Of a stretch of DNA of 48,190 nucleotides, positions 1-38,500 are shown piece after piece. Origin of the DNA: a virus; IMG/VR virus record IMGVR_UViG_3300025435_000472, positions 1 to 48,190 of that record, one strand, 5' to 3'. The stretch's first letter is position 1; each line of letters begins with the position of its first letter. The position numbers and the translations under genes were made by a program. The notes beneath the pieces are model-generated. The model did no database searches. It was given only the letters and a program-made list of their open reading frames with translations, and was not told where the DNA came from.

Positions 1-1086
1 AAGGCCAACTAACAGTTCATCTATCCAAGGATGTAATATGTCCTTAGGTAGGGCTAAAGGGCTCATAATAATATCAGGGCTAAAACTAAAGACTACTTTG
101 GCTAGGACATCGACCCCTTCTTCTTGAGCAAGACGGCTAATGTTTTGGATTTCGAACATTCCGGGCAGTGTGAGAGTAAAGTCAATTCGCATTTGCCTTC
201 TGTGAGTTGCTGCCTTAACTCCCTGACGGAAGTTCGCAAGCCAGTGGCTGTATCCAAGGCCTGTTCTAATGTATTCCCCAATTGCTCCTGTTCCATCGAG
301 GCTCGCGCAGATTTGCCAGTCACGTAGCCCAGATAAAATGTCCCTGTAAAGATTGACACCGCGATAGTCGACACGGCTAAGGTTAGTGTTATACCTTGCG
401 TATACATTTTTGCCATCTCCTAGTTCAACAATGCGCTTCATGTAGCGCCAATGTTGTTCGTACATCAGGGGCTCTCCGCCTACCCAATATACTTCTTCTA
501 CTTGATGTTGTTCTACAGCGTTTGCAAACTCTTGTTCAATTTGACTGTCTTGAAAGGCTGTTATCTGCTCTTTGATTTCGGGTTTCATCCAATTGTTCTT
601 TGGATTTGACCAATTGATCATATTGTGAGTGCGCTGTTCTGACTCCCAGGCACTAGATAGCATATCACCACACATACGACATTTGAAGTTGCATAAGTTA
701 GAGAATCTATAATCCCAACTAACAGGACGAAGTGTAGTAGTTCCGTCTGGTTGAGTATTCTCTAGTATACTATCGTACTTATGAGCAAACAGTTGATCAA
801 AATAACTACGGTAAACGGATGTGTTGAGTAACTTGTCGTTACATACTTCGCATTCTGGTAAAATTTCGCCAGCCATCATACGTCGACGTACTGACTTCAT
901 GTGAGGACTATTCCAGTGTTCTTCTAGAGTAATAGGAATATACTTGCCTGTGCCTGATTTAGTATCTATATACTGTTCAAAGTTCTGTGCAGGCTCGCGA
1001 CTGGCACAGCACATGCGTCGTTCTGTTTGCGGACTTAGATATGTATGCACCCAAGGTGCTAGACACATGGTCTTGGGTTTATTCAT
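1..1086 (-). CDS. Radical SAM protein with N-terminal twitch/SPASM-like domain (3' end outside window)
   Basis: The reading frame starts with ATG at 1086, overlaps the stop of the upstream gene by 8 bases, and stays open to the window edge, so 362 codons are seen and the C-terminus is missing. A cysteine-rich N-terminal segment (C8 in CLAPW, CC at 26-27, CEVC at 79-82) resembles a twitch/SPASM auxiliary cluster domain. The radical SAM core follows: CNFKCRMC at 132-139 (the CxxxCxxC that holds the 4Fe-4S cluster) and GGEP at 203-206 for SAM binding. The family cleaves S-adenosylmethionine to start radical chemistry, often on peptides. The domain order, auxiliary domain first, matches the known group of radical SAM proteins with an N-terminal twitch domain. 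The substrate is unknown. It is the last visible member of a run of four related genes. Confidence 0.85.
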   Translation of the reverse strand, partial: MNKPKTMCLAPWVHTYLSPQTERRMCCASREPAQNFEQYIDTKSGTGKYIPITLEEHWNSPHMKSVRRRMMAGEILPECEVCNDKLLNTSVYRSYFDQLFAHKYDSILENTQPDGTTTLRPVSWDYRFSNLCNFKCRMCGDMLSSAWESEQRTHNMINWSNPKNNWMKPEIKEQITAFQDSQIEQEFANAVEQHQVEEVYWVGGEPLMYEQHWRYMKRIVELGDGKNVYARYNTNLSRVDYRGVNLYRDILSGLRDWQICASLDGTGAIGEYIRTGLGYSHWLANFRQGVKAATHRRQMRIDFTLTLPGMFEIQNISRLAQEEGVDVLAKVVFSFSPDIIMSPLALPKDILHPWIDELLVGL

Positions 1087-19800: not shown

Positions 19801-22800
19801 ATTGGATCTACGTAGGTATCTTCTACGTATGCGCTATCATCAGCATACTTAGGCACGCCATCACCGCCGTTAACTACATATTTGCTAGGTAACGCTGTGC
19901 TTTCGACCCACTCTAATACTTCAACTTCTGATCCTGGGAATAAGTTGCCCCAGTTAATTGAACGATAGGTAAGTGTATCTTGTTCATAGTCAATAAAGCG
20001 AATCTTGCTTAGGTTCCACCAAACACGGCCAACTTGATTCGTGCCCCAGTAGATGCTGGCGTTAATATCCGCTGCAGAGTTTGTTCCTCTATTATAGATA
20101 GCAGGATCGTATTCAGTTTTGTAACTGATTTCCTGTTCAGCTTGTCCGAGTATGCGACCTTTAGCCGGATCAATAAACTGTAGATTTTCAATAATTGTGC
20201 TTGTTTGACTATTGTACAGATACATTCTAGTAATACTGTCAACATCAACACGATCTTGTTGGTAACGTATTAGTTGCCATCCGCGTGTTACTTCTGGGTT
20301 TTCAAACACATAAACTGAGCCAACATTCGGAGAAATTGTGTCATCACCAGGTGCAGAAATTACAATATATTGACCTTCAATGTCTAGTGCAGCACCAAAT
20401 CGATCTCCGCCGTTTAGTGCGCCCGGATCAAGTTGTTGACAGAATTGATATCTACCTGGATGTGGGAATGAATCACGTGGATCATCATATAGTTCATATA
20501 TGTAGACGCTTCCACTGCTTGCCACATGATCAGCGAACTCAGTTGTCTTATTATCAAATTCAGTTGTACCTTGATCGAACGGTGTTAAGTGTCGAGTAGT
20601 ACCGCGATCACTGCCAATTACTAACATGTATGCGTTGGCAGCTAATTTAACTTTGCTACCAAAGTATTCATTAGATGCATTGTAGGGATTAACAATGACC
20701 TGCATTTCTGCAAACACAGCCATACCAGCGTTGGCCCAAATAGTATTATGTCCATAAGCTGTTGATCCAGATAGCATACGTAATTGATCTTTAACCACAG
20801 TAACATCAGATGTTAATCTTAGGTAACCGTTTTCATTTGTTGCAGTAACACCCAAGATGCCTGCAGTGTTAATATTTGTAATTAAATCATTTAATGAAAC
20901 CACAGACGATAATGGTGTGCTAATATTTGCCGCAGTAACTTCAAAGTTATCTAAACGAATAGAATCACCTGCATTGAATACTGGATTTTGTATAGTGCCT
21001 AAGTTAGTACCATATAGTCTACCGCGATTGTGGAATTTAAACACAGCACCTGTGTTATATGCAGCACCGTTTTTGTAGTAAGGAGAACCTACATAAATCG
21101 CACAGTTGTTAGAACAAATTGTTAGACTTGTGCCAAATGCCGCATTGGCCTGTACTTCATTACCTGTAACTTTTTCAAGTTGATTAAATTGATTAGCCTC
21201 AACATAGATAATTTTACCTAATGCAGGTGGCTCAATAAAGCGTATAGTATTAGTGCCTACAACAAAGTAGTTAGTAACTTCTACGTTATCGATAGTTACA
21301 CGATGCACAGTTGCAATGTTGCTCTTAGTAACGAAATCTTGGCCGCCAGTTGATTTAAATGCTTCAATAACACGATCGTATACCCAGACACATCCAGCAC
21401 CTAGGTTAGTGCCCACTGTGTCATTTGGTGCGCCCACTGCTAACTGTGCGCCATCAAAACTAGAACTCAATGCGCTACCGTAGTTACTGCCCACATTACC
21501 CTGTAGTGTGGTCATTAATTTATAGTAAGGTTGTTGAGTAATTGTAAGTGTTACATTAGCTACAGTTGATGCAAAACTAACAACATTTCCGCTTAATGTA
21601 TAATCAACATTAGGTATGTATGTTTTATTGTAGCTGGTAATCAACAATGAATTTGCATCGTTGGCCACATATGGTGTGAATGTAAGTGCGGCAGTACTAC
21701 CACTCGGTGCGATAATCGTCTGTTTAACAGGTACACTCTTGTTTAGGCCATAGGCATAAACTTGATTGTTGCCCGGAGCACCAATATACAACCAAGAACC
21801 ATCTTGATTAAATGCAAGGCTTGTACCAAATTTATCGCCTGTAGCTGATACATTACCAACAATTAATTGTGCTTTGCTAAATGTTGCTGAAGAAGCTGTT
21901 TTAGTATAGACATAAACATATCCTAGATTATTGTAGCTGCCTGGTGCACTTACTGCCAATGAACTTGTATTTGGAGTCTGTGCCAGATCAACTATAGTAC
22001 CAAAACTAGAAGTAGCAGTTGAGGTGTTACCTGCATCTGGTATAAGTTTAGTATTTTCTAAGAATGTGCCTGTGTGATCTTTTAGGAACACATGTGCCGC
22101 ACCAGTGTTGCCACTAAATGGACTGCCAGTGACTGCAATTAGGCCATCTGCACTCATCTTAACACTGGTACCGAATCCATCACCAGCAACATAATCATTT
22201 GATGCTTTGTCAAGAGTTTGTTTTATATTCCATGGATGATGTTTTTCGTATACTTTCCATGTACCACTAGGTTGTGGGCTATATGGTTGTCCTTGAACGC
22301 TGGTAGTTGCCGCGTCAATATCAATCCATACTTTTTCGCCTACTTGCCAACCATGTGGTGGCATGTATTTACGAGCATCTTCCATATAGGTAAAGCGCAG
22401 ACTGTGCAATGTTAATAGTATGCCAGAGCCAGTTATAGTTGTTAATTTGCTGGTGTCACCAGTGTAGACAACCATAAGGTTAGTAGAGTCAACTACAGAA
22501 TGTACTTGATAGAACCCATCAAATGCTGAGTTAAAACTCTGCACCAACATAATATTACCAGCTGATAATCCATGTGGTCGACCAGTGGTAAATGTTACAT
22601 ATCCATTTAGGCTATTAGTAACAGATATAACAGAATTGTCTGTTTCTGTTACGCGGAATACATTCCAATTTTGTGTAAAATCTTTAGCGCACCAGATGCG
22701 ATATCCACTGCCCATTTTGCTGATGTTATTATCTAAATCAACATAATTAGCGAGATCAAATATTGTTAGGTCAACGTCATTGATGTTAACATAACCTGCT

Positions 22801-25800
22801 GTAGGAATATCATTGTCATAGTTACTATGAGAGGTTCTAACCAATGCAATATTGCTGGTATAATCACCGTATGATTTGTATAACTGTGATTCATTGAATA
22901 TAGTTTTTCCATCACCGCTGTTATTATTAGTACCCGCAACAAACTGTGCCAATGAAGGATTAACACCAAATGCTTTTTCATCTAGCGGTATTTCTACATA
23001 AGGGTTACTGTCTAGGGCGCCGTATTCACCAACACGAATTGCCCATTCTTCGTAGAATTTAATCTCACTACTTAGATTATCAAATGTAGCATTAAGCATT
23101 TGATTAACTGCATTTGCTGAACCTTTTTGTCGTATGAATCCTTTATAGAATTCAATTTGACTTGTTTCACTTAGTCCTAGGTCGCTTAGATATTGTCTTG
23201 GTTTAAATCCAATCAGTGCATGGCTGTGTTCAATTTGATCTTTGTCTTTGATTTCACCATAGCTATCATAATATGATTTACCTTCTACATTTAGTGTAGA
23301 GAAGTTAGGCAATAGACCTGTTTGAATCTGGCTCTTATCGATCTGTTTCCAATAGTTAAATTGGAAATCAGGAGCGGCAATAATATTTTGTAAGGCAGTA
23401 TAGTATTGATTTTTATATTCTACTAGGTCGCCTTTAAGATAGTCAATGCCTTGATCCCATGCAGCAACCACACCGTCATTGTAGATAAATCCAGGCGCAC
23501 TTAGGCTACCATCCCAGGCTGCTGTTTTCTGACCAATTAGTTTTAGTCGATACTGTCTATTACCACTTTCTGGTTGATAGATAACATCGTTGAATACTGT
23601 GGTGTTGTCAAAGATCAATACATGTTCGTATTGAACTAGATTAACTTCAACGTAACCAATCATGTTTGCGGCATTGTTTAGTGTTACTTTAAAGTTAGTA
23701 GGTGTACGTAGTACAGTATAGTTATTATTCTTAACTAATTTAAAGTTTTGATCTAGTACTTTACTACCGTATTGGCTGTCTTCAATACCATCTGTGATTG
23801 CATTGGTACTGATTGCACTTAATGTATTGGCTACCGGACTTAGTACTAAAATACTACCTGTTTTCCATCCTTGTTGTGCCCAGAATAAAAATTCTTTAGC
23901 ACTTAGGCGCCAATTATGCAGTTCACCTAGTTGTGAGTCGGTGTCATTAAACACAAAGCCTTGACTTATTAGATATCTTTCATAGCCAACTAAGAAATCA
24001 ACAATTTGTTGCTGAGTAGTAAACTCGTAACCATAAGGCACTGTTAATTTTAAATTTTGATAGTCATTAAAAACAGTCGCGCCACTATTCAATACTTTAA
24101 TTTGATAGCTGTTTGAGTTGACTACACTTGGGATAATAGTAAAGTAAGGGCTTGCTAGATTGTAGCCGCGAACACTGTATCCACTATTAGTTTTTTCAAC
24201 AATCACTGCACTGTATGACAGTGTCTTAGTAGGTGTTGATTTGTATAGATGTACATTATAGTTTTCATTTGGTACAACAATGCTATCACTGGTACTTGCA
24301 GGACTAACTTGTTCTGCTAATACCTGTAGGTATTTTTGATCCGTAAAGCCAGCTGTTTTGTAGGCCAATTTTACATTGTACTTGTCTAGCATTGATGTAA
24401 TTTTACTGCTAGGACTAATGCCTTGGCTGATCAAATAATCAGCGATCCAGTTAATATAACCAGCACCACGATAGACGGTGCCAGTAGAAACATCACCATT
24501 GAAATCTATGTCAGACTGAGCAATGTGTTGATTAGTGTTGGTTGTTAGGTATTGACTTAAACTATAATTGTATGTATAATTGTAGGTATCTGCTAATAGA
24601 CCAAAATATTTTGCTGGTTTAGCTAGAGCCAATGCCTGTTGCACAGCGAACGAAAAGTCACTGCTGGTGCGCCATGCAAATTCTACAGGGCCAAATTGTC
24701 CTACACCCCAGCTGGCTGATGTTTGTCTTGCAGAAAATCCACGAGATAGTACCTGTGCTGGATTTAATAAGTTACCATTTTCGTCAATTGGTATAATAGT
24801 ACTTAGGCCAGGACGAGCAAACTGTGGGTCAATGCCCTGTCTTGGACCATTACGAATCATACCTGCTTCTAGGTCATCCCATAGAAGTTTATTGCCGCCA
24901 GTGTAAGGTGCAGGACCATATTCATCTTGCCACCAGTTCGGCATTGCAGTAAAGCCTAACATTTCCCATGGTGTTAGATGGGGTCGGAACGTATCATAGA
25001 AGTATTGGAAACATGCTCTCCAGCTACCCGGAAGTTGTTCACCGTCAATACGATCAACTAAATTACCATAGTTCCATGTAAATGCATCATTTGTGTCAAA
25101 TGTATTATTAGTAGTATAATCAAGTTTATTGTTGCCTAACCAATGTAGGAAACTCTTAGATAGTAACTGATTTGCTTCAGCTAATGAGTAATCATTATCT
25201 CTAAATTTACCAGGAACTACAGTAAAGATATCCTGATATGTACCTGTGTCAGGTAATTTAATATTGTTGTAGATACGTTTTTCAAGTTCTAATAACAAAT
25301 CATCACGATAGTCTCCAAACGCCGGAGTAATGCTGCCGTCATGTCCGCGAATAACATTAGTAGGAGTTCTATAAGTATCATCTAAGAATATTTCCGGAAT
25401 AAATCTAGGCCATAGTCCTAGTTTACTTGGAGTTTCTGGAATATAATTACCATCAGTATTACTATATTCTACAATAGTAATTGTGTCACCTACTGATAAA
25501 CTTGTAGTAAATCTAGCCGCAGGACGATCTTGTAAAAATGTAAAATCATTGCCAACTATTAACTGCACACCATTTAGGTATACTAATACTGCTTGATTAC
25601 TCAACACTTGATCAGCAAATATGTTAGTAAGTTCGTAGTCTGTTTTTAGTGCATCAAATACTGTATAGGTTATAGTATTTTTCAATGAACCGTATGGAAC
25701 CATATCACTGTAGTACCATGGGAATGTTTTATTTTTAATGCTGTTAATAGCAGTTAAAATTAAATCCACAGTGGCTACTGGATCAGTCTGATCTACTCCA

Positions 25801-28800
25801 GTTAGAGAAATGCTTAATCCTAAAAATTTATTTTTAAATCTGGCATACTCGGATTGTGCGTAACGCAATGAATCAATAAAGTTTGCAGTGTCATCTAATA
25901 AGAATAATGCGCTGTGTGTTACAGGAGCACTATGTTGTAAGATAGTACCGCCTTGTTGTTTGATTTCAAGGTCTCTTAAATTGCTAACTCCCAGTACATC
26001 ACCTGTTATAATGGTACTGTTCTGTGCCATAGCAACCAAATGGTTACGCATCTGACCTAATGTTACTGTAGTAATGTCAATGTTTTGTGCATTTAATTCT
26101 AAGTTAGTTGGTACTTGATAAGAACCAAGCGCACTCTTGTCAGTGCTGTAAACTAAGATATCAATCTTATCGCCATTAGTAGGAATTTGTATTACCTTAA
26201 TGTCAATAATTGCTCCAGCTACCGGTGCTGTTGTAAACAATACCGTTGCTCCTGAGATTAAAAACGTAGACGGTGATTGTACAACATTGTTAATGCTAAC
26301 AACAACACCGTTAACATAATTAGGATCACTAATATTATAAGAGGTAGAAGTACCGTCGGCTGTATATTCTTGCGTAGTTACAATACGTACAGAACCACCA
26401 ATCAGCATCCATTGTGTATTTGACAAATATGTAAAATTGTGGTATACTTTAATGTAAGGTATCGATGATTGACCTGCAGGAGTAACGTCAATCGGAAATA
26501 CTGTGTTCACTCCGTTGGCAATATAACCAATCAATTGATATTGTTTTGTTGGTTCAACTATAGTAGTCCATGTATTGTGTGGCTCTAAAGAATTTCTATC
26601 AATGATCTTTTGTAGGAAACCCGTTGCTACATTTTCAGTCGATGGTTGTTGCCCATCTGTATATGTAAATGTATCAGTGTTAAAGAATGTTTGGAATTCT
26701 ATCTCACCTTGAGTCGATAGGTTTCTGTAGCTTAATGGAAATCCTAATACACTGTCAGTTACTCCGGCACTGGATTTTAAATAACCAAATAATTGTGTGC
26801 CTGCAAATGTGCTTCTTGTATAAGCAGAAAAGCTCTTACCTGTACTATCATATACATCAAATAACGGACTTTGTTGTAGGCCTGTTTTTTGTTGACTTGG
26901 GTTCCAGTTAGCACCATCGTACCACCATTGACTGCCTTTGTATTGTCCTTGTAGTACTACCACAGAATCATTTACCTGAGCAACACCGTCGTCGGCTAAT
27001 ACTAGATCGATATGATAATCGCCTGTTGGATTTCCGTTAACGTCTACAGCATATTGTACTAGGTTAACTACATAAATTTTATCACGCACTAATGGGTCAG
27101 CATCAGCTGCAAATAAAACTCGAATACCACTAACTAATGTGATACCAAATGCCTCAGATGCCACACGACCTTGTAGTTCTGTAAAGGCATCAGTAGTTAC
27201 TGTATCTAAAATATCAATAGGTGTTTTACCGATTCTACCATGGTTTATCAGTTGTAGATCTGGATCAAATTGTATAATAGGACGTTTTGCACGTAGGTTC
27301 TGATCCAACACTGGAACAACATTATTGTATCCAGCTGTTGCAGTAATAACATCGCGATGGAACCAACGATTGTTACGTGACCAAGCATTTAAATCTACAC
27401 TGCTACGGTTAATTGTAATATAATCAGGAAATACTTTACCTGGGTAATTCAATGCTAATTCGTCATTGTATGTTTCAGGCGTTACTAATAAATTAACGTC
27501 AACTAATCTAATTCCTGCACCCACTTGTTCTACATAGTATTGGCCGTTTTGATAGTCGGTAGGAGTCACATCTTCACCAAATTGAATTTTTAATCCTGTG
27601 GTAAACTGCACACCATTAGGACTGGTATAGTTTAACTGCCCTAGAATATCATTTTCTACATCAATAGCCCAATTACTGTATTCCACAAGTTTAATTGAGT
27701 TGTACATGCCAGTACTTGTTTGGTCCTGTATATATAGTGTAGACAGTAGACTTGACAATAATGGAACTTGATGGAAGAAACCATCGTAGTCTTTGTAAAA
27801 TTCTTTATTAGCGTTAGCTACACCGTATCTGACATAGACTTTTTGATCTAGTGCTACATCTTGTACATATACCATTTGTATTAATAGATCAGGACTGCCA
27901 TCAGCATTTTTAATACCGGCATCAACTAATACTACTTTCCAAACACCATAGCGTAGAGCACCTGCAATCACAGTGCCTGCGGCATATCCTGCAACAGGAT
28001 TGCCAAGATTGTCGTAGACCACCGGATTAGTCCAAGCTGTTTCGCCTAGATTGGTGTACATGTCTGAAATAACAAATATTAAAGTTTTACCACTAAGTTG
28101 TCCGATAATGCCGCGCCATTGAGGATATTCAGCAGTGAATTGACTAACTGTTTTATTTTGCCATGTGTCATATGGCGCCGGTGTAGCGTAGTCTACATTG
28201 TAGACTGTAGTCATTCCAGTAAATCTATTCTGTGATGACAGTTGTGGCACTTGGAAGGTAATTGTTCCGCTATCTGTACCATTATTAGTTACACCTAAGA
28301 CATCTCTAGAACTAAGTGTCGGAGTAGCGGCTAGGACACCGTTGGTGCCTAATTCAGTTTGAATCCAAAATGGAAATCCAGGTTGATTAATAACAAAGTT
28401 ATAGGTACCACCACGTGCCAATGTTATAGAATGATCTACTTCACCGTTAGAAGTAAATGTATATTGATTCGTTGTTGCATTGCGTGTTACAATGTATGTT
28501 TTAGTTAACTCAACGCCAGAAGTATCAACTGTTACTGCATCTGGGCCATTAGGTAGCCAATAGTATTGACTAAAGTTAACAAACTTGTCAAAACTAATTA
28601 ATGGATTGAAACTATAGTATTCGCTGTCGAATAAACGACTTTGTTTATCAACAATACCACCATAGTACTTAATTTTGTTTAGTACATCGGTATAGGTTGC
28701 AAAGAATGTAATTTCATTTTGAGCATCTTGAAGTACAACGCTAGGCTCAAGTTGATAATTCTTTCTATCACCGGTTGTTTCTGTAATATAACTATCTCCA

Positions 28801-28958
28801 GTTTTATAAGTTGGAGCAAATTTTCTTCCGATATATCCATACAGTTTAGTTAGATTAGGTTCATTAACTAACTGATCCATAGTAGCCGACAAAAACTTTT
28901 GGTTAGTGTCGGATTGGAATACTACAGGAAGTAAATTTAAAGTCTTTTTAGCAGCCAT
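16872..28958 (-). CDS. Giant virion protein in the gp7 position of the baseplate operon, with FG-GAP-type repeats
   Basis: One uninterrupted frame of 4028 codons lies directly after gp6, where T4 has gene 7 (about 1030 residues), so it is a baseplate or tail-tip protein by position. The N-terminus ([25 protein letters not shown]) and a central piece [19 protein letters not shown] look like conserved parts of large structural proteins of marine T4-like phages. From about residue 2255 to 2890 it has at least five FG-GAP-like units ([79 protein letters not shown]), suggesting a beta-propeller. Near 3555-3640 there are two PGSGYT repeats. No protease or signal sequence is visible. The gp7 identity is inferred from position. 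Confidence 0.75.
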
Positions 28959-28988: not shown

Positions 28989-31900
28989 TTAAGCCAATGC
29001 AATCTGGTTGATTTGTGCGGCTGTAATTGCAGTAATGATCTGTACATTATCCACTGTAGCGGCACTTACAATAATCTCATTGACATTTGCGTTAATTTGT
29101 AGTAAACTACCGAACACGCTAGAATTACTTGCAGGTACAATTAAAATACTTGCAACGTTAGGTGCTAGGGTAGTGTGCAGATATGCCGCTAATTCTGAGA
29201 AGTAGAATGTTTCACCGAAGTCCCAGTTAGCTATAGCAAAGTAATTGTTAATTGCAGCAATTACAGATGTTTGTATATCGTAATCACTGATAACAATGTT
29301 AGGATTTTTAATCACTTTGAATGTTGCCTGTAGACTAGGATCAGCTTTAGCACCAAAGATTGGTTTAAATGATGCAGGATTATAAATGATAGTGTCACTG
29401 ATAGATTTATAATTCTCTAAATTGTTATATTCTAAATCCAATTCTTCGCTTGTAGGAGCAGTTGGTTCTGTTAGTGTATTAGAAGTATCTTGTACCCATG
29501 CAATGTAGTCAGTGGCATACTGTTTAGTTAAAATATACAAGTCAATAATATTATTTGGACTTGGGTCAATACGACGATAGTTAGGACTATTATGACGATA
29601 TTGGAAGTACAGATCTTGACGACCAATTTTAGCAGAATAACCAGTTACAGGATTTAACACATAACTTGCTCCATTAATGGATAGTTGATAGAATGCATCA
29701 TCCATTGGAAAATAGAACAATTGACCAGCAGTGTATAATGTAGCCGCTTGTTGTGCTGCTTGAAGCGTTGGGTAATTTGATAAGATAAGACTATTATCTA
29801 CAGGAGTTTGTACTACAAAATTATCGTAACTGTTAGTAGCCTGGAAATAAACATACTTGCTGTTGGTATTTGTGTTTGGATTAACAATCAATTCAAATAG
29901 TTCAGGATTATCAGGAATGCCATCGTTGTTTGAGTCAGGGAATGTTACTAAAATTCTATTAGGATTTTGATATCCGTCAACTGCCGTGATAGCATTATAG
30001 ATATACCAAGTATAGTCTAGTGATAGTGGATTAGAATCATCTGGATTACTATTTGTTTTTAATACTTTGATTTGATCGTTAATAGTTAATCCTGTAGTTG
30101 CATCAAAGATTTTAACTGAATTGTCAAAGTAAAAGTTAGTTTCTTTTACACTTTCGAATACATAGTCAAGACCACGATAGTAAACAGTATAAGTTTGACC
30201 CACTGTTTGGAAACGTATTAACCAACTACTGTCTAGTGACTGGCCACTGGTATCACCTGTGTTTGTTAGATCAAATGCGGCTGTGCTTAGATCCTGTGGC
30301 ATAATGATCTGCCAGCTAGAAAGTTCAACGTCATAACGTAGACCAAAATCTGCATAGGCTGTAATATATCCTACCATTGATGATACTAGATCAGTGGTAA
30401 AATCATTGTTAAACACAGCAAAGATAGTATCAGCTATTGCGCCGTTAGGTACTAACTGATTGATCACAACAGGGCCTGTGCCGTTGGCAAGGTTACCTTG
30501 TCCACCGTTAGTACCGTCACCAATTAACTGTTCAATAGTTGCATAGATATAGTATTTGTCGCCAGTGTTCTTAGGAGTACCAACTTGTATTGTATTAGTT
30601 GCATCAAAGTAGTTGCCTGTACCTGCTGAAAATCTAACTATAGAACTTTGTACAATGTATTTGTTTGAGTTACTTACAGCACTACCAACCTGTACAATTT
30701 TTCCAGTAGCATCATAGAAATAACCAGTAGAACCATTGGCCAATAATGTTGACGAATTCCAATATAAGTTTTCAGTTGTAATCAACGGATAGTTAGCATA
30801 GAAATACTGTAGCGTCTCTTGAGCACTGGCAATCGGTTTAACCTGATTGTAGACTACTTTGTAGATATCATTTGATGTTGTATATTCAAAATTAAATGTA
30901 TCTTCAAATGGGTCACGATATAATATACCGTCTTGTGCAAAGATGTTAGTACTTGAATATTTGCCTGTCACATCAATAACATCTAGGTAACGACTGATAC
31001 CGCTTGATGTGCGGTTTACAGCTTTAATTTTTAATATGTCGTTGAACAAGGTATAAGGTAAAATGTTATAGTCTTCACCTGTAACCATACGGTTTTGTGT
31101 ATAGTACTGTTGTGGTGCTTTCTGTCTAATATCTTCAATAGTGTCACGGCTTGTTGCATTAGCCACTGTATATTGTAGACTTGCACGAATAGTAATAGTT
31201 TCAATACGTCCAGTATGACTTACATAATTGATAGGCACTACGATACCTTGTAATTCTGTAGGAGTAATTTTATAGTCTAGTCCATTACTTACACGATAGT
31301 AAACACGGAAGTTACCTTGTGGAATATTAGCAAACGCACCGTCACCAAAAATCAGATCCACTTGATCACCAGCACGTGTAGCAACTTGGTAGATGTTTTT
31401 ATTAGAACTTTGATTGTAGATAACATTAGTGTTGTTTACTGCAGGTACCTGTGACCATAGTACACTTGGGTTGCCACTAGAATCTAAACTGTATAACCAG
31501 ATATCTGTGTTATTAATATTGTCTACGCTTACGCTATACACACGATTAGGTAAACTTTCTTGGAAGGCTACATCGATAGATTTTAAACTTCCCTGTTTGA
31601 AATACATAAAGAAACCGGTGTTAGCACTGCTATTACCAAGGTTGTCGTTTTTGTATAGTAAATTAAACGGTAGGTTAGGACGTGGTGCTACTTCGTATAC
31701 ATAGCTACTGCCTACACTGGTTGGGCTAACCATTTCAAAGTTAGTCTGCGAACCTTCGATTAGGGAATTAAAGCTATATGTAGGTATAACGCTTGGTACT
31801 AATCTAATTTGATATTCATCGTTAGTAATACCGTTGATAATTTGACTATTGCTAGGTTTGCCTACTACTTGATTAGCAATCAAGCTGGCATTTAGCACGG

Positions 31901-32372
31901 CTGTGAATTGTTCAAGCCAATTATCGTTACCAGCATCTGCCCAATTAACTAATAGACCACTTAGATTAATGCCGTTGCTGTCATAGACCTGTTCGGTAGT
32001 ACTAACGCTGTCAACTTTTAAGAATCCACTTGCTGGAATATTGCGTTTAGGATTGTAGCTGACTAAGCGAGCAAGTTTAAGAATACTGTCACGACGTTGT
32101 GCTGTGTCAATAAAGTTTTCACGTGCGTTTAAGTCACCTCGGAAAGCTAAACTTTGTCCTAAGAAAGCAATTAAATCAATTAAGGCTACAAACTCACTGC
32201 TATCAATAAAGTCATTGAAATCTTCTGGGTAATATAGTCTTAAGTAACTGACCATCGAAGCGCGAAGCGTTTCAAAGTCATAGCTTTGAAAGTCTGCGTT
32301 TCTAAAGGTTTGATATAGTTTAGTCCAGTCTTCTGCAACTAATAAACTCGTTTGTCGTGTGGTGGTAGCCAT
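28989..32372 (-). CDS. 6: Baseplate wedge protein gp6 (baseplate J-like)
   Basis: The N-terminus is typical of T4-like gp6: WTKLYQTFRNADFQSYDFET, LRLYYPEDFNDFIDSSEFV, then LARLVSYNPKRNIPASG. The middle carries a baseplate-J type strand pattern with DQVDLIFGDGAFANIPQGNF. T4 gp6 is about 660 residues; this one has 1127, with the additional length in the middle and C-terminal parts (several Tyr/Asn-rich insertions). gp6 forms the ring of wedges in the baseplate and changes shape during tail contraction. A ribosome site (AAGGAA) precedes the ATG at 32372, with a late-promoter-like AATAAATA further upstream. It lies between gp25 and the giant gene, in T4-like order. Confidence 0.9.
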   Translation of the reverse strand: MATTTRQTSLLVAEDWTKLYQTFRNADFQSYDFETLRASMVSYLRLYYPEDFNDFIDSSEFVALIDLIAFLGQSLAFRGDLNARENFIDTAQRRDSILKLARLVSYNPKRNIPASGFLKVDSVSTTEQVYDSNGINLSGLLVNWADAGNDNWLEQFTAVLNASLIANQVVGKPSNSQIINGITNDEYQIRLVPSVIPTYSFNSLIEGSQTNFEMVSPTSVGSSYVYEVAPRPNLPFNLLYKNDNLGNSSANTGFFMYFKQGSLKSIDVAFQESLPNRVYSVSVDNINNTDIWLYSLDSSGNPSVLWSQVPAVNNTNVIYNQSSNKNIYQVATRAGDQVDLIFGDGAFANIPQGNFRVYYRVSNGLDYKITPTELQGIVVPINYVSHTGRIETITIRASLQYTVANATSRDTIEDIRQKAPQQYYTQNRMVTGEDYNILPYTLFNDILKIKAVNRTSSGISRYLDVIDVTGKYSSTNIFAQDGILYRDPFEDTFNFEYTTSNDIYKVVYNQVKPIASAQETLQYFYANYPLITTENLYWNSSTLLANGSTGYFYDATGKIVQVGSAVSNSNKYIVQSSIVRFSAGTGNYFDATNTIQVGTPKNTGDKYYIYATIEQLIGDGTNGGQGNLANGTGPVVINQLVPNGAIADTIFAVFNNDFTTDLVSSMVGYITAYADFGLRYDVELSSWQIIMPQDLSTAAFDLTNTGDTSGQSLDSSWLIRFQTVGQTYTVYYRGLDYVFESVKETNFYFDNSVKIFDATTGLTINDQIKVLKTNSNPDDSNPLSLDYTWYIYNAITAVDGYQNPNRILVTFPDSNNDGIPDNPELFELIVNPNTNTNSKYVYFQATNSYDNFVVQTPVDNSLILSNYPTLQAAQQAATLYTAGQLFYFPMDDAFYQLSINGASYVLNPVTGYSAKIGRQDLYFQYRHNSPNYRRIDPSPNNIIDLYILTKQYATDYIAWVQDTSNTLTEPTAPTSEELDLEYNNLENYKSISDTIIYNPASFKPIFGAKADPSLQATFKVIKNPNIVISDYDIQTSVIAAINNYFAIANWDFGETFYFSELAAYLHTTLAPNVASILIVPASNSSVFGSLLQINANVNEIIVSAATVDNVQIITAITAAQINQIALA

Positions 32373-32404: not shown

Positions 32405-32430
32405 GAAAAAAGTGGGTAGTTAATTAACTA
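32405..32430 (-). terminator. Possible weak terminator after gp25
   Basis: The perfect palindrome TAGTTAATTAACTA (32417-32430) overlaps the gp25 stop. On the minus strand it is followed five bases later by a run of six T. The stem is almost all A-T and therefore weak; it may only reduce read-through into gp6. Confidence 0.3.
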
Positions 32431-32801
32431 ACAGAAAGTTGTTTTGATTGGTTATCGAACTGTAAATTCATAACACTTGACTGGTTTGTCTGCAGGTATC
32501 TTAATTCTAAAGCTATCTGTAGGCCCTGATTATATTCTGTAACTACAATATTATCAAAACTCACACGAGGATCATACTTGGCGATAGCTTCTATATCGCT
32601 GGTAATAAGACTTTTAAGCTCAGATGTAAATGGTTCGTGCATTACGTTCCAAATAATAGTGCCAAAATTTGGATTCATTAGCTTTTCACCCTTGCGAATA
32701 TTGAAATGATTAATAATATCCTGTTTAACCAATTCTTCATCCGTAAGGCGAAACTTCTTGCTTGCGCCTAATGTACTAAAACCTTTATAAAATGTAGCCA
32801 T
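32424..32801 (-). CDS. 25: Baseplate wedge protein gp25 (GPW/gp25 family)
   Basis: The 125 residues match the length and pattern of gp25: KFRLTDEELVKQDIINHF, GEKLMNPNFGTIIWNVMHEP, then a C-terminal domain with DPRVSFDNIVV. T4 gp25 is 132 residues. The protein is part of the baseplate wedge core near the sheath attachment site; its fold is shared with type VI secretion TssE. Although once thought to be a lysozyme, it acts structurally in the baseplate. The gene starts nine bases after the stop of gp5, and AAGGAT lies just before the ATG. Confidence 0.93.
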   Translation of the reverse strand: MATFYKGFSTLGASKKFRLTDEELVKQDIINHFNIRKGEKLMNPNFGTIIWNVMHEPFTSELKSLITSDIEAIAKYDPRVSFDNIVVTEYNQGLQIALELRYLQTNQSSVMNLQFDNQSKQLSVS

Positions 32802-32809
32802 AAAAATAT

Positions 32810-34894
32810 TTATCCTTGACTAACTGACGTCATTTGTGGTGCTAATACCGCTACTGCATATTGCCCCTTGGCAAAATAAGAAGCACCTGTAGTGCCGTAT
32901 TGGTCAGCTCCACTTGCTCCGTTGCGATATGCTTTTGCACCACCTGGGCCTAGTAGATGTGCAACCGCTAACATACCAGCAATATCCTCTGGTTTCTGAT
33001 CAGCAGTAATAGCACCAATTCTAACCATAGAAGTGTAGTTTCGTTTGGTATATTCGCACATTGCCTGCTCTTGTTCTGGGCCATTGCTGAGCCAGGCCTG
33101 CAGACTGTTAACACCATTTTTGTTAGGACTCCACATGTTTGGATTGTTTAGTTGACTGTTACTCTTACAGGTCTTGCTTACATAACCACCATCAATTAGT
33201 GCAGGATAGCCAAATTGGTATTTGCCCACATAGCCAATTGAGTTAACTACATCATACTTGCCGCCGCTTTCGCTTTTGCCAATTGTAGCATAGTAAGCAG
33301 TTAATTGATCTGATGTTAGATTGCCAATGGTACAATCGCATTTAGGTTGATTACGTAGATCAGTTGCAGTTGCAGGATTTTTAACCGGAGTTCCTGTTGT
33401 TTTAGTAGCATCCTGTGTGCCTGTGTATTTTCCTGGTTGTAGTCCAGGGGCTGGAGTGGCCGCATACTGCGCCTGTCCTCGTGCAAAAGGTTCATGAGTA
33501 GGTGCTACTGCAACAATGGTACTAAGAACATCCGAATTAGAAACATATAATCCTGTAGATGAATCTAAACTAACATCAGGTAAGCTATTGACCTTTATTG
33601 GAGTAGCAAACGTTAATGCCTGTGTACCACCACTGTTTTGTTTAACCAATGATCCTTCATAGGCAACGGTGCCGCCTGACTTAATACTAACAGTTGCACC
33701 TGCATCAACAATAAATGTAGATCCCGACTTGCATCCGATACTACCTGTTGAATGTAAATTAAGTGCCCCAGTTAGAATAGTACTCGAAGAGTTGTTTACA
33801 CTAAATACACTTGATGCCATGTTAATATTGTTTAAGGCATTAAAGTTAATGTCCTGATCTGCATGGAAATTCATGCTACCTTGAGTTCTAACATTAAATC
33901 CGCTAGATGCAAATATATTAACAGCACCGTTGGCATCTAATTCCACCCAACTCGATCCATCAGCATGACTAATATACAATGAGTTGTCAGTGTCGTGCAT
34001 CATAATTTGATGCCCTTTGCCTGTACGCAGTCTAATCAACTGATCTTTGCCAACAACATTACCGTCATCCATGATAAATGTATGGCCGCCTCGACGTGTA
34101 GTGTAGGCGTAGTCTGCTTCTGTTAGGGTACCTGCTTGTATTTTGGCCAAGAATGCTTCGGGATTTTCTGCGCCGTTATCTGGATAAGGACGACCCGGTG
34201 TACTGATACCGAAAACGTTGCTAGGTGTTTCACGTTGACTACTACTTGTAACAACCCCACGTGTAGTATCACGGTCTAGACCCTGTACTTTTAAAATATT
34301 GTATTGTGGTTCGTGTATAGGTTTAGGATTACTATAAAACGATTGACTTTGATATGTTGTAGGGTCGTTTTCATTAAATTCTGTTACTGGTGCAGGCGTG
34401 CCTGGTTGATATGATTTAGCAACATCCGCACTGGCTCCGGATACATCTACATTAGTACTACCAGCTATAGCTGGAATCATGTACTTGCTTAAGTGACTGT
34501 TAACACAACCGATCCAATAACCACGCAATGGATCACCTGCAATAAAGATAACAATAACTTCTACACCAACATCCGGTGGTACCATCCACATGCCATAGGT
34601 ATGCGGAGTATTGCCAAATTTATTAGTAGTATTGGCTGTTCCATTGGTGCCATCTTGTACAATATTTGTAGTACCTAGGAATGGACTACTGTAGCTGACT
34701 GTGCGCCAATTTTTACTATCGTTACGATCACCACCTAGATCCGGGATCCATACCTGCAGTCTTCCACTACGTGTAGGATCTAGGTTATTTTTAACAATGC
34801 CAATATAAGGATGAGGGTCAACACGTGTGCCGGGAGCTTCCTCGCGGCGCTGACTCTTCATTATCTTATTGCTTTGTCTATGATCTATTGCCAT
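32810..34894 (-). CDS. 5: Baseplate hub/spike protein gp5-like with C-terminal lysozyme-like domain
   Basis: Residues about 27-135 form an OB-fold domain as in gp5 and VgrG (HPYIGIVKNNLDPTRSGRLQ, WMVPPDVGVEVIVIF, DPLRGYWIGCV). Residues about 265-450 look like the triple-stranded beta-helix spike, with GGHTFIMDDG and ADQDINFNALNNINM. Residues about 525-690 resemble a transglycosylase or lysozyme: YYATIGKSESGGKYDVV with E542 as candidate acid, then GYVGKYQFG and MLAVAHLLGPGGA. In T4 the lysozyme lies between the OB-fold and the helix; here it is after the spike. The protein should form the tail tip that pierces the envelope and opens peptidoglycan. AGAGGA stands before the ATG. Confidence 0.88.
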   Translation of the reverse strand: MAIDHRQSNKIMKSQRREEAPGTRVDPHPYIGIVKNNLDPTRSGRLQVWIPDLGGDRNDSKNWRTVSYSSPFLGTTNIVQDGTNGTANTTNKFGNTPHTYGMWMVPPDVGVEVIVIFIAGDPLRGYWIGCVNSHLSKYMIPAIAGSTNVDVSGASADVAKSYQPGTPAPVTEFNENDPTTYQSQSFYSNPKPIHEPQYNILKVQGLDRDTTRGVVTSSSQRETPSNVFGISTPGRPYPDNGAENPEAFLAKIQAGTLTEADYAYTTRRGGHTFIMDDGNVVGKDQLIRLRTGKGHQIMMHDTDNSLYISHADGSSWVELDANGAVNIFASSGFNVRTQGSMNFHADQDINFNALNNINMASSVFSVNNSSSTILTGALNLHSTGSIGCKSGSTFIVDAGATVSIKSGGTVAYEGSLVKQNSGGTQALTFATPIKVNSLPDVSLDSSTGLYVSNSDVLSTIVAVAPTHEPFARGQAQYAATPAPGLQPGKYTGTQDATKTTGTPVKNPATATDLRNQPKCDCTIGNLTSDQLTAYYATIGKSESGGKYDVVNSIGYVGKYQFGYPALIDGGYVSKTCKSNSQLNNPNMWSPNKNGVNSLQAWLSNGPEQEQAMCEYTKRNYTSMVRIGAITADQKPEDIAGMLAVAHLLGPGGAKAYRNGASGADQYGTTGASYFAKGQYAVAVLAPQMTSVSQG

Positions 34895-34906
34895 TGATTA
34901 TATCCT

Positions 34907-37900
34907 CTATGCTGCTGTGCTAATTTGATTTTGTAGTGCTTTTTCTGCTTGATACGCTTGGAAGTTTTGTTGTTGTAAACTTAAGAATGTTGCAGTTGCA
35001 GAATCTTTTTGTTGCTGTGCTGTGGCCAATAGTGCCTGTGCGGCAGCAAGATTGGTCTGTGCAGTTGCATAACCTGGATCAGATGGTTGAACTGCGCTGT
35101 ATCTATCAATTCTAGCCTGTTGTCGATCAATATCATTTGTTGCTGTTTCTATTGCAGCATTTGCAGCATCAGTTTGTTGATGTAGCGGTGCATTGGCCGC
35201 TTGTAGATCAGCAAGTTGTTGTTGGAGAGCCAATTTGGTCGCACTTGGCCCGGTATCTGCAGGTGATACAGTAGCTTGAGGTGCTGCATCTGCACTGCTT
35301 GGACTTGTTATTGCCTGCGTTGAAGCTGTGCTATCTACTATTGCAAGATCTTGTTGAGCCGCTGAAGCTGTAGGCTGCGGATTATCAGCTACTGGCGTAT
35401 TATTAGGTGCTACATTATCGCCTGTTGTTTTTGTAGTTGGCGAAGTTGTTGTAGGTGGAGCAACATCAACATTTGTTGTGTTAACTGTAGTTCCACTTTC
35501 TGAACGCTGTGTTGTTTGTTTATCTGCTACATAGTCAAGAGTTGATTGACGAGGTAATCTAACAATGTCCAATGATTGTTCAAATTTGCCGCCACTAAAT
35601 GTACTGTCAACTTTCAAAACTCTAAACATACCAGAAAACATAGATGACTGTTGGAAGTCACTATCAAATTTCATTAACCCTGTGCTGTCGTCAATGTCGC
35701 TGGGCATTAAAAATTTAACTTGAATATACACTTCTTGCTGATCCATGTGTAGACTTCCATCAGCAATTAATCTATCATCTGATGATGGAACTGCAGTAGA
35801 TGCCGAACCAGTCAACGGATTAATTACATTAACCGGAGCATAAAATGTATCATCTTGTTTAATATACTGCGGGTCACCAATAATTTTAAGCGTACCTTGT
35901 AGCATGTCGCCGCCGGCCGCTGTGTACAGCGACTCTTGTGTATCCACAGCCGCGGCCGCTTTAGGTGTAATATCACCGCCTGTAGCACGTGCTTTGGCAT
36001 CTACAGTCTGTGGTTTTTCTTTCATTGGTTGTACTGCGTTTGCTGTGTCGTCTATACCATTGTAGTTGTCTGGATTTAATTCTTGATCATCGTAGATATC
36101 TAGACCGTAGGTTGCGGCCATGTTCTTTTTATAAGCAGTAACCGCAGTGTAGTATAAGGCATTAAATTCAAGATTAAAATCTAATACATCTAGATTTTTG
36201 CCTGTGTAGTAATAGTTGTATTCTTTAAGTGGAGTAGTCCATGTACCTTGTGGCGCGGCAGCTATTTTAGTATTATAAACATCATAGGTAACTACATTAT
36301 AGGTAATTTCTCTAGCCCATACTTTTCTAATTGTATCATAGCCAGTCAATGTTACCTGTGGAACAATCTTAAACCATTTTAGAGGTAAATTTGCATTTTT
36401 AAGTTTAGCCGCTTTATATCCGGCCGCATCACTGCCAAAGTCTTCAGGCACCACTAATTGATTCTGTATATAATCACTGTTACGTATCACATAGTTAATG
36501 ACCATGTCTATACTTGTGCCTGTATTAATAGAAAATATCTGTGTACTATAATCTAACGCGGCGTTAACAGAATCCGCGTTACCGGCACGCATCGATATTT
36601 CATTAGATGCGTCTGCCATAGGTGTATCCTTAGCACTTAGATTTTTACCTAATAGAAATTTTGCTGATTGTATTTCAGGAGCAAATTTAAAATAGATCGT
36701 ATCAGCTACTTTGATCTTTTTAGTTTTAACCATGTCATCAAACCAAGCATTATACGCACTACCATATGATTTTACACGATACACTGGATCCGACGATATA
36801 ACGTTAGCAACCTTTTGTGGTACTGTGGTTAATGGAACCGGAGATATAGTACCGTCAGGATTTATCTTATTACCATTGGCATCGATGTTGTACCCATTTG
36901 CAGCAGTTTCGCGTTCTGATTTAGCTTCTGCCAGATATGATTCACTTTCTGTACTTTGGAAAAAGCTGGCCACTGTACCTGCAACTATTTCAAAGTGTGC
37001 AGGCGTTGCTAGAGTAGATACATCAAATGCAGAGTGATTATAAGGGCATGCTTCGATCTGGTATTCAGCACCTTTGCTCGATGCTTTAATATTCATTGAC
37101 AATATACGTATAGGAATGCGTTTTACCTGATTAGGAATTGAACCAATAATTGTACCAGTGTCGTCGATAGCAAAGAAATCTATCTGCAGCATATAAGGTT
37201 GCTCTACATAGTTTCGTGCCTTAACATCCGGACTCGAACATAGTTTAATAATTCTATCTACCAGCGTCATACCATACGGTTCGATGATTGTAAATGTCGT
37301 TTTGATAGCATTAGTAGCACGACTATGTTCGTTCAATCCAATTATAGTTTCAATGTTTAAACTTTCAAAGTAAAAATCTTCAGCAAAATAAGGTGCTCGA
37401 ATAAATTGATTAGGGTCAGTGGCATCCTGTGTGTTATTATATCTACCTGCACTGGCAATAATTACACGTTTAGGTGTATATGTTTGTGTTTTAACTATTT
37501 GATTATATTCGTCGATTGTCATTAAAGCCAAGCTCAATCCATAAGTATAACTTGGATAAGCATGCAGAGGATTCATTATAGGTGCTTTACTTGCGGCTGT
37601 GCTATCAGGATTTGTTGCTGATGGTGTTGCTCCGCCGCCACTAGGTTCTGTTTGTATTCCACCTGTTTGATTAAAATTAGGAGCAATATTATAATCAGTG
37701 CCCACTATGCTTGGTTCAGAAGAAGTTGATAATGGAGCAACGTATCCGCCACCAGTATAATAATCTGAATTTGGATCATAACCACCCTGTTGTACAGCGT
37801 TATAATTTGGCGCAGTTAAATTAACCTGTTCTTCTGTAGTCAATTGATTAGAAGTATCGGCGGCCGCTGTTTGTGCGGCTGAGGGATTTTGATTATCTAC

Positions 37901-38194
37901 ACTGGCCTGTGCCGTGTCTGCAGATGGGTTTAATGATGCTAATTGTGATTGCAAATCTGAAATAGCCGCTTGCTGTTGTGAAATAATGCTATTTGCATTT
38001 GTAATATCATCTTGTAAATCTGCCGCATCTTGTAGCAGATTATTTCGCACAAGGCTATTACCCGGTGCATTAGCCGCGGCCATCTTAGCATCATATTGAC
38101 TTTGCAGACTTGCCAATGTTGCCTGATTAGAACTAAGCGTAGACTGTGCAGATGCTATCTTGGCTTGTAAATCCGATGCCGTTGAAAGTGCCAT
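34907..38194 (-). CDS. Large baseplate protein with terminal coiled coils (hub candidate)
   Basis: The 1095-residue protein lies between gp53 and gp5. Residues 1-95 and about 985-1095 are strongly coiled-coil (LQAKIASAQSTLSSNQATLA at the start; AQALLATAQQQKDSATATF near the end). Between them is a low-complexity linker with GGYDPNSDYYTGGGYVAP, shared with the 484-residue structural protein upstream, and a globular core with RIIKLCSSPDVKARNYVEQP and GAEYQIEACPYNHSAFDV. The position and the strand-rich core suggest a hub or tube-cap role like T4 gp27, but I see no decisive motif. AGGA lies nine bases before the start. Confidence in a virion protein is high, in the gp27 comparison low. Confidence 0.7.
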   Translation of the reverse strand: MALSTASDLQAKIASAQSTLSSNQATLASLQSQYDAKMAAANAPGNSLVRNNLLQDAADLQDDITNANSIISQQQAAISDLQSQLASLNPSADTAQASVDNQNPSAAQTAAADTSNQLTTEEQVNLTAPNYNAVQQGGYDPNSDYYTGGGYVAPLSTSSEPSIVGTDYNIAPNFNQTGGIQTEPSGGGATPSATNPDSTAASKAPIMNPLHAYPSYTYGLSLALMTIDEYNQIVKTQTYTPKRVIIASAGRYNNTQDATDPNQFIRAPYFAEDFYFESLNIETIIGLNEHSRATNAIKTTFTIIEPYGMTLVDRIIKLCSSPDVKARNYVEQPYMLQIDFFAIDDTGTIIGSIPNQVKRIPIRILSMNIKASSKGAEYQIEACPYNHSAFDVSTLATPAHFEIVAGTVASFFQSTESESYLAEAKSERETAANGYNIDANGNKINPDGTISPVPLTTVPQKVANVISSDPVYRVKSYGSAYNAWFDDMVKTKKIKVADTIYFKFAPEIQSAKFLLGKNLSAKDTPMADASNEISMRAGNADSVNAALDYSTQIFSINTGTSIDMVINYVIRNSDYIQNQLVVPEDFGSDAAGYKAAKLKNANLPLKWFKIVPQVTLTGYDTIRKVWAREITYNVVTYDVYNTKIAAAPQGTWTTPLKEYNYYYTGKNLDVLDFNLEFNALYYTAVTAYKKNMAATYGLDIYDDQELNPDNYNGIDDTANAVQPMKEKPQTVDAKARATGGDITPKAAAAVDTQESLYTAAGGDMLQGTLKIIGDPQYIKQDDTFYAPVNVINPLTGSASTAVPSSDDRLIADGSLHMDQQEVYIQVKFLMPSDIDDSTGLMKFDSDFQQSSMFSGMFRVLKVDSTFSGGKFEQSLDIVRLPRQSTLDYVADKQTTQRSESGTTVNTTNVDVAPPTTTSPTTKTTGDNVAPNNTPVADNPQPTASAAQQDLAIVDSTASTQAITSPSSADAAPQATVSPADTGPSATKLALQQQLADLQAANAPLHQQTDAANAAIETATNDIDRQQARIDRYSAVQPSDPGYATAQTNLAAAQALLATAQQQKDSATATFLSLQQQNFQAYQAEKALQNQISTAA

Positions 38195-38197
38195 TAA

Positions 38198-38500
38198 TTA
38201 TAGTCCTAGTGCAGCAGTTAATGCAGCTTTTTTAGGTACATAGATAGTTGCACCTGGTAAAAAATCATAGATTGGATCTTGTATTGTATTTGGGTTACGC
38301 ACCGCAAACACCCACCACAATGCACTTGTGCCGTACAAATCGTAAGACAATAGATCGGGACGATTTTTATAAATTGCATCAATCTTATAAACTACATCTG
38401 TAGGATCATTAGGAATGCTAGGAATATTAGCAACGTCTAAAAATGGCCCGAATGTTTCGTTGTTGTAATACGGACTTGTCTTACTGTATGATACTGACAT
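38198..38500 (-). CDS. 53: Baseplate wedge protein gp53-like (LysM-like fold)
   Basis: The 100-residue protein contains IYKNRPDLLSYDLYGTSALW followed by WVFAVRNPNTIQDPIYDFLP and GATIYVPKK. This is the signature of the gp53 baseplate wedge family, which resembles the LysM-like baseplate proteins of other phages. T4 gp53 is about twice as long, so this is a short form like those in marine relatives. In T4, gp53 binds gp6 and links wedges around the hub. The start overlaps the upstream stop (TAATG), and the GGAGG inside the end of that gene serves as ribosome site. Confidence 0.85.
   Translation of the reverse strand: MSVSYSKTSPYYNNETFGPFLDVANIPSIPNDPTDVVYKIDAIYKNRPDLLSYDLYGTSALWWVFAVRNPNTIQDPIYDFLPGATIYVPKKAALTAALGL

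Follow-up and report, generated by a model that had tools for sequence, protein, structure and literature searches.

The 48,190-nucleotide virus record IMGVR_UViG_3300025435_000472 of IMG/VR (hereafter the window, meaning the whole stretch of DNA that was analyzed) carries a gene that raises the question of whether the cell-wall enzyme of a phage central spike can stand behind the spike helix, at the C-terminus of the protein, and whether it is still an enzyme there. A first-pass annotation had described the product as a gp5 whose lysozyme-like domain was moved to the C-terminus, in contrast to T4 gp5, and would sit at the very tip, with a changed manner and time of delivery.

The Spike Gene Lies in a Baseplate Operon

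The gene (32,810–34,894, minus strand) is a complete open reading frame with an ATG start, encoding 694 amino acids, which Pfam, PHROGs, and our own HMMs identified as a baseplate hub spike of the gp5/gpV/VgrG kind. The neighboring genes lie on the same strand. The next gene (32,424–32,801) encodes a gp25-like baseplate wedge protein (PF04965, 42.5 bits, with a cut-off of 27.2), and a gene at 28,989–32,372 encodes a baseplate wedge subunit (phrog_10646 and phrog_219), for which we infer the name gp6. Directly upstream of the spike gene, at 34,907–38,194, a 1095-residue protein matching phrog_11190, “virion structural protein” (E 2.1e-27), occupies the gp27 position and, by that position, as in PA5oct and RaK2, would be gp27; a gp53-like baseplate wedge protein (phrog_7145, E 7.5e-25; PF11246, 21.1 bits, with a cut-off of 21) is encoded at 38,198–38,500. 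With these gp53-, gp27-position, gp25-, and gp6-like neighbors, as assigned by Pfam and PHROGs, the gene sits in a phage baseplate operon, and its product is therefore a baseplate spike. The sizes of the open reading frames around the spike were alike across the seven loci compared, the exception being the separate enzyme gene of locus L187.

The 48-kb record is probably a fragment. It also encodes, after the gp6-like gene, a 4028-residue virion protein (16,872–28,958, minus strand) with an FG-GAP repeat (PF14312) and a match to carbohydrate-binding module 5/12 below the cut-off, and a radical SAM-like protein (3640–5016, minus strand; phrog_1802, E 5.9e-12).

Domain Order of the Spike Protein

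The order OB-fold, spike helix, and enzyme-fold domain, which the first-pass annotation had proposed, was confirmed by Pfam, by PHROGs, and by our own OB, HELIX, and LYS HMMs, built from a 63-row alignment of 62 distinct sequences in which the window is present twice. An OB domain of the PF04717 type occupies residues 22–145 (34,460–34,831; 35.1 bits, with a cut-off of 23.8, and our own HMM) and is followed by a DUF2345/VgrG-like spike beta-helix region at residues 262–425 (33,620–34,111), which was detected by the HELIX HMM, the DUF2345 match itself falling below the Pfam cut-off. After the helix come an APTHEP motif (residues 464–469; 33,488–33,505), in which H467, E468, and P469 are invariant in alignment A2, a linker of 47 residues (470–516; 33,347–33,487), and a domain with a lytic-transglycosylase fold (residues 517–690; 32,825–33,346), identified by the LYS HMM, AlphaFold2, Foldseek, and VIA-align; all of these features are read from the minus strand. 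Two PHROG families cover the protein piecewise, namely the RaK2-type hub family phrog_13211 over residues 20–431 (E 3.2e-47) and the enzyme part of the phiM9-type hub family phrog_27932 over residues 520–682 (E 8.7e-36).

Our HMMs found the OB-HELIX-LYS order in 102 open reading frames across 136 loci, a count that includes the window's own copy (L001) and in which overlapping loci of one contig are counted repeatedly. Since so many open reading frames share this order, the spike gene is not a chance open reading frame. Model confidence in the linker was mostly low, with pLDDT below 50 over residues 479–490 and 492–511 in the predicted model of residues 1–511. Because a flexible linker lies between the helix and the domain, the domain is better described as tethered near the tip, and a location at the very tip itself is something we infer.

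The OB and Helix Part Is of the gpV/VgrG Type

Foldseek analysis of the model of residues 1–511 (pLDDT 73.6) returned 14 matches at E ≤ 0.001, all of them spike or baseplate entries, headed by the AlgoCIS spike (1.6e-7), the Anabaena CIS spike (6.9e-7), and T4 gp5 (4.1e-6), with a VgrG match at 1.4e-4. The VIA Z values of the spike part, a multi-domain monomer model, reached at most 7.6, and the helix part was modeled poorly because a monomer was predicted. The helices of T4 gp5 and phiM9 matched our HELIX HMM. The OB similarity of the window spike to T4 gp5 was weak (7.4 bits), and Gp5_OB (PF06714), which we take to be the OB family of T4 gp5, was not among its Pfam matches up to E 1. No Pfam match to GH24 (PF00959) was found in the window spike, and the LYS HMM scored −4.2 bits on T4 gp5. 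Searches by sequence for solved relatives yielded none that was convincing for the whole protein, the C-terminal domain, or the domain profile.

The protein therefore combines the features of a contractile-injection spike of the gpV/VgrG type, that is, a PF04717 OB domain, a spike fold, and a baseplate neighborhood, and lacks the OB-lysozyme-helix order, the Gp5_OB domain, and the GH24 enzyme of a T4-type gp5. The description of a gp5 with a moved enzyme is therefore misleading, because the OB domain, which is of the P2 gpV/VgrG type (PF04717), and the enzyme both fall outside the T4 families.

Fold and Candidate Active Site of the C-Terminal Domain

AlphaFold2 modeled the C-terminal domain with a pLDDT of 95.1 and a pTM of 0.90. 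VIA-align matched this computed fold to Cj0843 (Z 12.4), MltE (11.2), Pseudomonas Slt (10.6), and phiKZ gp144 (10.1), and 39 of its first 40 rows were lytic transglycosylase entries (Z 12.4–9.7), the other being a T7 core-protein entry. For a mostly helical domain, a Z near 12 is supportive, not decisive, as helical models without a clear match can reach 13–14. Foldseek ranked MltE first and phiKZ gp144 next, with no match at E ≤ 0.001 (best, 0.049). No Pfam lysozyme family exceeded its cut-off on the window domain (PF06737, 15.0 bits, with a cut-off of 27); within the domain family, Transglycosylas (PF06737) matched 32 of 54 members at E ≤ 0.1 (best, 2.9e-5), and SLT (PF01464) matched 2 of 54 (best, 0.034). 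The fold searches by Foldseek and VIA-align thus place the C-terminal part inside the lysozyme/lytic-transglycosylase superfamily, and the lytic-transglycosylase matches leave the original lysozyme-superfamily reading standing. The term muramidase-like is to be narrowed accordingly, the superfamily fold being present and the closest proteins being GH23-type lytic transglycosylases, not a T4-type muramidase. By its modeled structure, the domain is classed as GH23-like in fold, and the sub-cut-off Pfam score sets it apart from membership in the curated family.

The Glu of GKSESGG, previously proposed as catalytic, is E542 (33,269–33,271), and both conservation and the fold alignment support its candidacy. 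E542, S543, Y547, G557, and Y559 are present in all 63 rows of the alignment (62 distinct sequences) and Q560 in 98%, although E542 is absent from many relatives at greater distance, and the invariant positions of a 54-sequence domain alignment are E31 (equivalent to E542), S32, G46, Y48, W77, Q97, and G129. In the MltE alignment, which pairs model 1..178 with chain 34..207, the end points set E542 at MltE E64, and in the Slt alignment they put it within one residue of Slt 503; the titles of structure entries name MltE E64Q and Slt E503Q as inactive mutants. The conserved segment G557-K558-Y559-Q560 (33,215–33,226) presumably corresponds to the GxxQ motif of GH23 enzymes. Based on the model, E542 is the probable catalytic acid.

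Fused, Split, and Central Forms of the Domain

A scan with the spike alignment returned at least 80 hub loci, 76 of which were new. At least 37 open reading frames were hubs without a fused enzyme, comprising 35 short-tailed hubs and two hubs, L204 and L211, with long C-termini of 789 and 749 residues beyond the helix, in which none of the local payload seeds gave a match. Among the matches listed, the LYS domain was present in the next open reading frame for 29 of the 35 short-tailed hubs (28 of 34 distinct ones, L186 and L187 being identical). The short-tailed hubs without it, among the matches listed, were L052, PA5oct, SCTP-2, L156, L180, and L184; the L180 locus ends 556 bases on from the hub, and in L052 two genes separate the hub from the gp25 gene, neither with a Pfam family at E ≤ 0.01. 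With the first ATG taken as the start, the hub and LYS open reading frames overlapped in 17 of the 29 pairs listed, by 4 bases in 12 of them, and lay 1 base apart in 9.

A quick, unrooted hub tree without bootstrap, from which rows more than about 85% alike were dropped, held 99 hubs among the matches listed, 65 fused to LYS and 21 split; C-terminally open ORFs and repeats were left out of the rows. The split hubs formed three clades, and the split label changed five times on this tree of matches listed, two of the changes being due to L180 and L184, which showed no downstream copy, so that three is the safer count. The domain tree, also unrooted, with rows more than 90% alike dropped and with long branches for L135, L122, L124, and L050, contained 8 central, 42 C-terminal, and 7 other rows, and its C-terminal label changed three times, two of the changes being forced by well-supported branches. 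Because both trees are unrooted, gains and losses are indistinguishable. The domain also has another carrier: L101, L103, L124, and L125 encode proteins of 654–772 residues that contain the lysozyme-fold domain with an intact Glu and in which no OB or helix was detected.

These forms bear on how the enzyme came to its place. That the enzyme moved directly from a central site in a T4-like gp5 to the end of the protein appears improbable to us, even though the domain family precedes the helix in phiM9 and in seven further rows of the domain tree, and the C-terminal copy of L102 groups with the central copies (support 80/85). The window OB domain is PF04717, whereas the central-order hubs L110 and L119 have PF06714 (phiM9 shows neither), and the occurrence of split hub/enzyme pairs in three clades, among the matches listed, makes the joining of neighboring genes the simpler route. 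The enzyme may be called moved in the sense that its family is also found centrally, in phiM9; the relatives that encode it in a gene of its own downstream indicate fusion or fission, for which no direct relocation is needed, and the C-terminal enzyme is best read as one state of a neighbor pair.

The same pairs bear on the idea that the domain is removed during maturation. As recounted in the available part of a study of T4 gp5, that protein is cut between enzyme and helix (PMC3004832), and the linker of the window spike, predicted to be unstructured, would be a plausible protease target. The split forms, however, present the domain as a separate chain without cleavage, an observation that is uninformative on the fused forms; we consider removal very improbable.

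Repeated Loss of the Catalytic Glu

A Glu at the position of E542 was found, among the matches listed, in 86 of 102 distinct fused open reading frames, another 11 having a different residue or a gap and 5 being unaligned and, by eye, without the ES motif. Among the same matches, it was present in all central (9/9) and other (10/10) copies, and in only 2 of 28 distinct split copies. The Glu state changed six times on the hub tree of matches listed, the five unaligned fused rows being set as Glu-less by eye. A profile of 21 Glu-less split domains matched A1 with an hhalign value of 99.6% (E 1.3e-23, 168 columns), indicating that these domains are true, full-length relatives. Nine split pairs were compared, some of them with a member in common and each from the largest split clade; their non-synonymous change was 0.012–0.19 per site, far below the synonymous change of 0.31–0.73, showing that the domain is maintained by purifying selection. 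The Glu is also missing from the full-length domain of some fused relatives of the window: L153, and L146 and L147, two contigs that encode one and the same spike. As the Glu has been lost in so many relatives, catalysis is dispensable in part of the family, and the domain of many relatives is, judging by their sequences, most likely a pseudoenzyme.

All of these losses, together with the maintenance of the Glu-less copies, favor the view of the C-terminal domain as a chiefly structural module for the tip or for docking, with a lysozyme fold in which catalysis is secondary and often lost. The view is opposed by the conservation of the ES...GxYQ site in the window and its nearest relatives in the 63-row alignment and by the retention of the Glu in every central and other copy listed, and we hold it to be rather unlikely.

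Extra C-terminal sequence goes with Glu loss, in related rows. Among fused copies, at least 80 residues follow the domain in 6 of 85 that have the Glu, in 5 of 11 that lack it, and in 5 of 5 that are unaligned there; among split copies, the numbers are 0 of 2 with Glu and 20 of 26 without. These counts are among the matches listed, leave out one C-terminally open row, and come from related, non-independent rows. The Glu-less L160 has a VanY peptidase behind the pseudo-lysozyme (PF02557, 27.8 bits, with a cut-off of 25). Among eight segments located behind Glu-less domains, Pfam found no family apart from this VanY/M15 match and weak Phage_tail_C and SPAM matches in L209; it found none in two N-terminal segments of separate enzyme genes, and the separate Glu-less gene product of L192 had no match in phage records. 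A VanY-type peptidase match below the cut-off was seen behind the lysozyme-fold domain at the C-terminus of L050. Of 10 records searched with the A1 profile, 9 contained a single copy of the domain; the record of L210 had an additional, weak one (E 7.8e-4). GH24 and M23 were each found in 0 of the same 10 records; as these may be incomplete, the absence of another wall enzyme in Glu-less phages is not established.

Comparison with Known Spike Layouts

The layout with the enzyme after the helix is already known from RaK2 (2013) and CBB (2017), with another enzyme family. The available text on RaK2 places the enzyme of gp078 C-terminal of the helix and speaks of a “very unusual domain composition” (PMC3622015), and that on CBB describes a hub with a gp5 domain at the N-terminus, possibly M23 in the center, and a lysozyme at the C-terminus, contrasted with T4 (PMC5259590). 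RaK2 gp078, CBB_240, and 121Q gp587 have the OB and helix scaffold in common with the window (phrog_13211); their C-terminus consists of an M23-like domain and a GH24 lysozyme, whereas that of the window is one GH23-like domain. Pfam detected GH24 at the C-terminus of the RaK2, 121Q, and Vibrio phage 2.275.O hubs; M23 fell below the Pfam cut-off in RaK2 and Vibrio phage 2.275.O and was assigned in 121Q by similarity to RaK2 only. Neither family was found in the window spike (by Pfam) or in the window record. The word “lysozyme” does not occur in the available part of the RaK2 adsorption paper (PMC10253068).

The hubs of XacN1/CM1 and Atu_ph07/Phosso have the scaffold of the window with other C-terminal payloads, which are SLT_3 in XacN1 and trypsin-like in Atu_ph07 by Pfam, those of CM1 and Phosso being assigned by similarity to these. 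The trypsin-like peptidase of Atu_ph07 (PF13365, E 6.1e-17) is at the C-terminus of the spike encoded at 3405–5999 of L133, and that of Phosso, recognized by its similarity to Atu_ph07, is at the C-terminus of the spike encoded at 3414–6545 of L139; the available text on Atu_ph07 describes gp699 as a predicted lysozyme and does not mention a trypsin-like domain there (PMC6102473).

T4 gp5 resembles the window protein as a central spike with an OB domain, a lysozyme-superfamily enzyme, and a triple beta-helix, and differs in that its enzyme is in the middle, belongs to another family, and is cut and helix-blocked (PMC3004832). In the portion of that source at hand, the chain is cut between Ser351 and Ala352, separating enzyme from helix, the helix and linker block the lysozyme until the helix dissociates, and the trimer retains 10% of the monomer's lysozyme activity. 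The phiM9-type hub of rhizobial T4-like phages (phrog_27932) has the enzyme family of the window (LYS HMM, 5.9e-54), but carries it before the helix, at residues 329–500 of 858. VgrG3 of Vibrio cholerae, compared by description only, has a C-terminal cell-wall enzyme after a linker, like the window spike, and is, unlike it, a secretion-system effector with an immunity protein; its C-terminal domain is called lysozyme-like or pesticin-like in the available text (PMC9927483). Judged from sequence, what appears to be new here is the GH23-like family at the C-terminal spike position, the gene splitting, and the repeated loss of catalysis; a search of open-licence PubMed Central returned neither a GH23-like domain at this position nor pseudoenzyme spike tips.

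The PAAR tip protein (PF05488) was over its cut-off in 5 of 11 phages scanned (T4, PA5oct, Atu_ph07, SCTP-2, and Phosso) and not in RaK2, Vibrio 2.275.O, XacN1, 121Q, phiM9, and S-WAM1. It was found in 0 of 17 IMG/VR records, the window included, which may be fragments, and was over its cut-off in 1 of 19 (the contig of L208), with a weaker match for L187 (21 bits, with a cut-off of 27). In the SCTP-2 record (L138), a PAAR match at 118,974–119,123 has two internal stops (one TAG and one TAA). Strict exclusion of PAAR by a C-terminal enzyme was rejected, because Atu_ph07, Phosso, and the contig of L208 combine a C-terminal payload with PAAR.

A Probable Tethered Payload and Its Implications

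Taken together, we consider it likely that the product of this gene is the central spike in the baseplate of a T4/RaK2-like jumbo phage and carries a tethered, GH23-like, murein-cutting payload. The OB domain and beta-helix would form a membrane-piercing needle, presumably as a trimer, and each chain would continue through the APTHEP motif and some 47 flexible residues to a GH23-like domain. Upon tail contraction, the needle would cross the outer membrane, the tethered domains would reach the periplasm near the needle front and, with their predicted activity, cut the murein, and the tube could then reach the inner membrane. Since a flexible linker carries the enzyme past the helix, we expect it to be neither blocked nor cleaved off: no cover by the helix would be needed, and neither maturation cleavage nor helix release would have to take place. 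Such an entry of the enzyme into the periplasm with the needle front would parallel that of evolved VgrG3.

In the relatives, the payload would be fused to the spike or encoded in the next gene, with the Glu repeatedly lost and the fold kept. This repeated loss suggests that the domain serves a non-cutting role in part of the family, such as a needle-end cap or murein binding. More tentatively, the spike of these numerous jumbo phages may be a carrier whose lysozyme-fold tip module is mainly structural and is kept independently of catalysis, the window holding a live version of it.

The standard model of murein breaching by contractile phages is T4, in which the enzyme lies against the side of the needle and is blocked until the helix falls away. 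An enzyme tethered beyond the needle would imply a different activation and timing, nearer to those of evolved VgrG effectors, and the presence of fused, split, and dead versions on one scaffold makes the role of murein cutting by the spike in entry testable.
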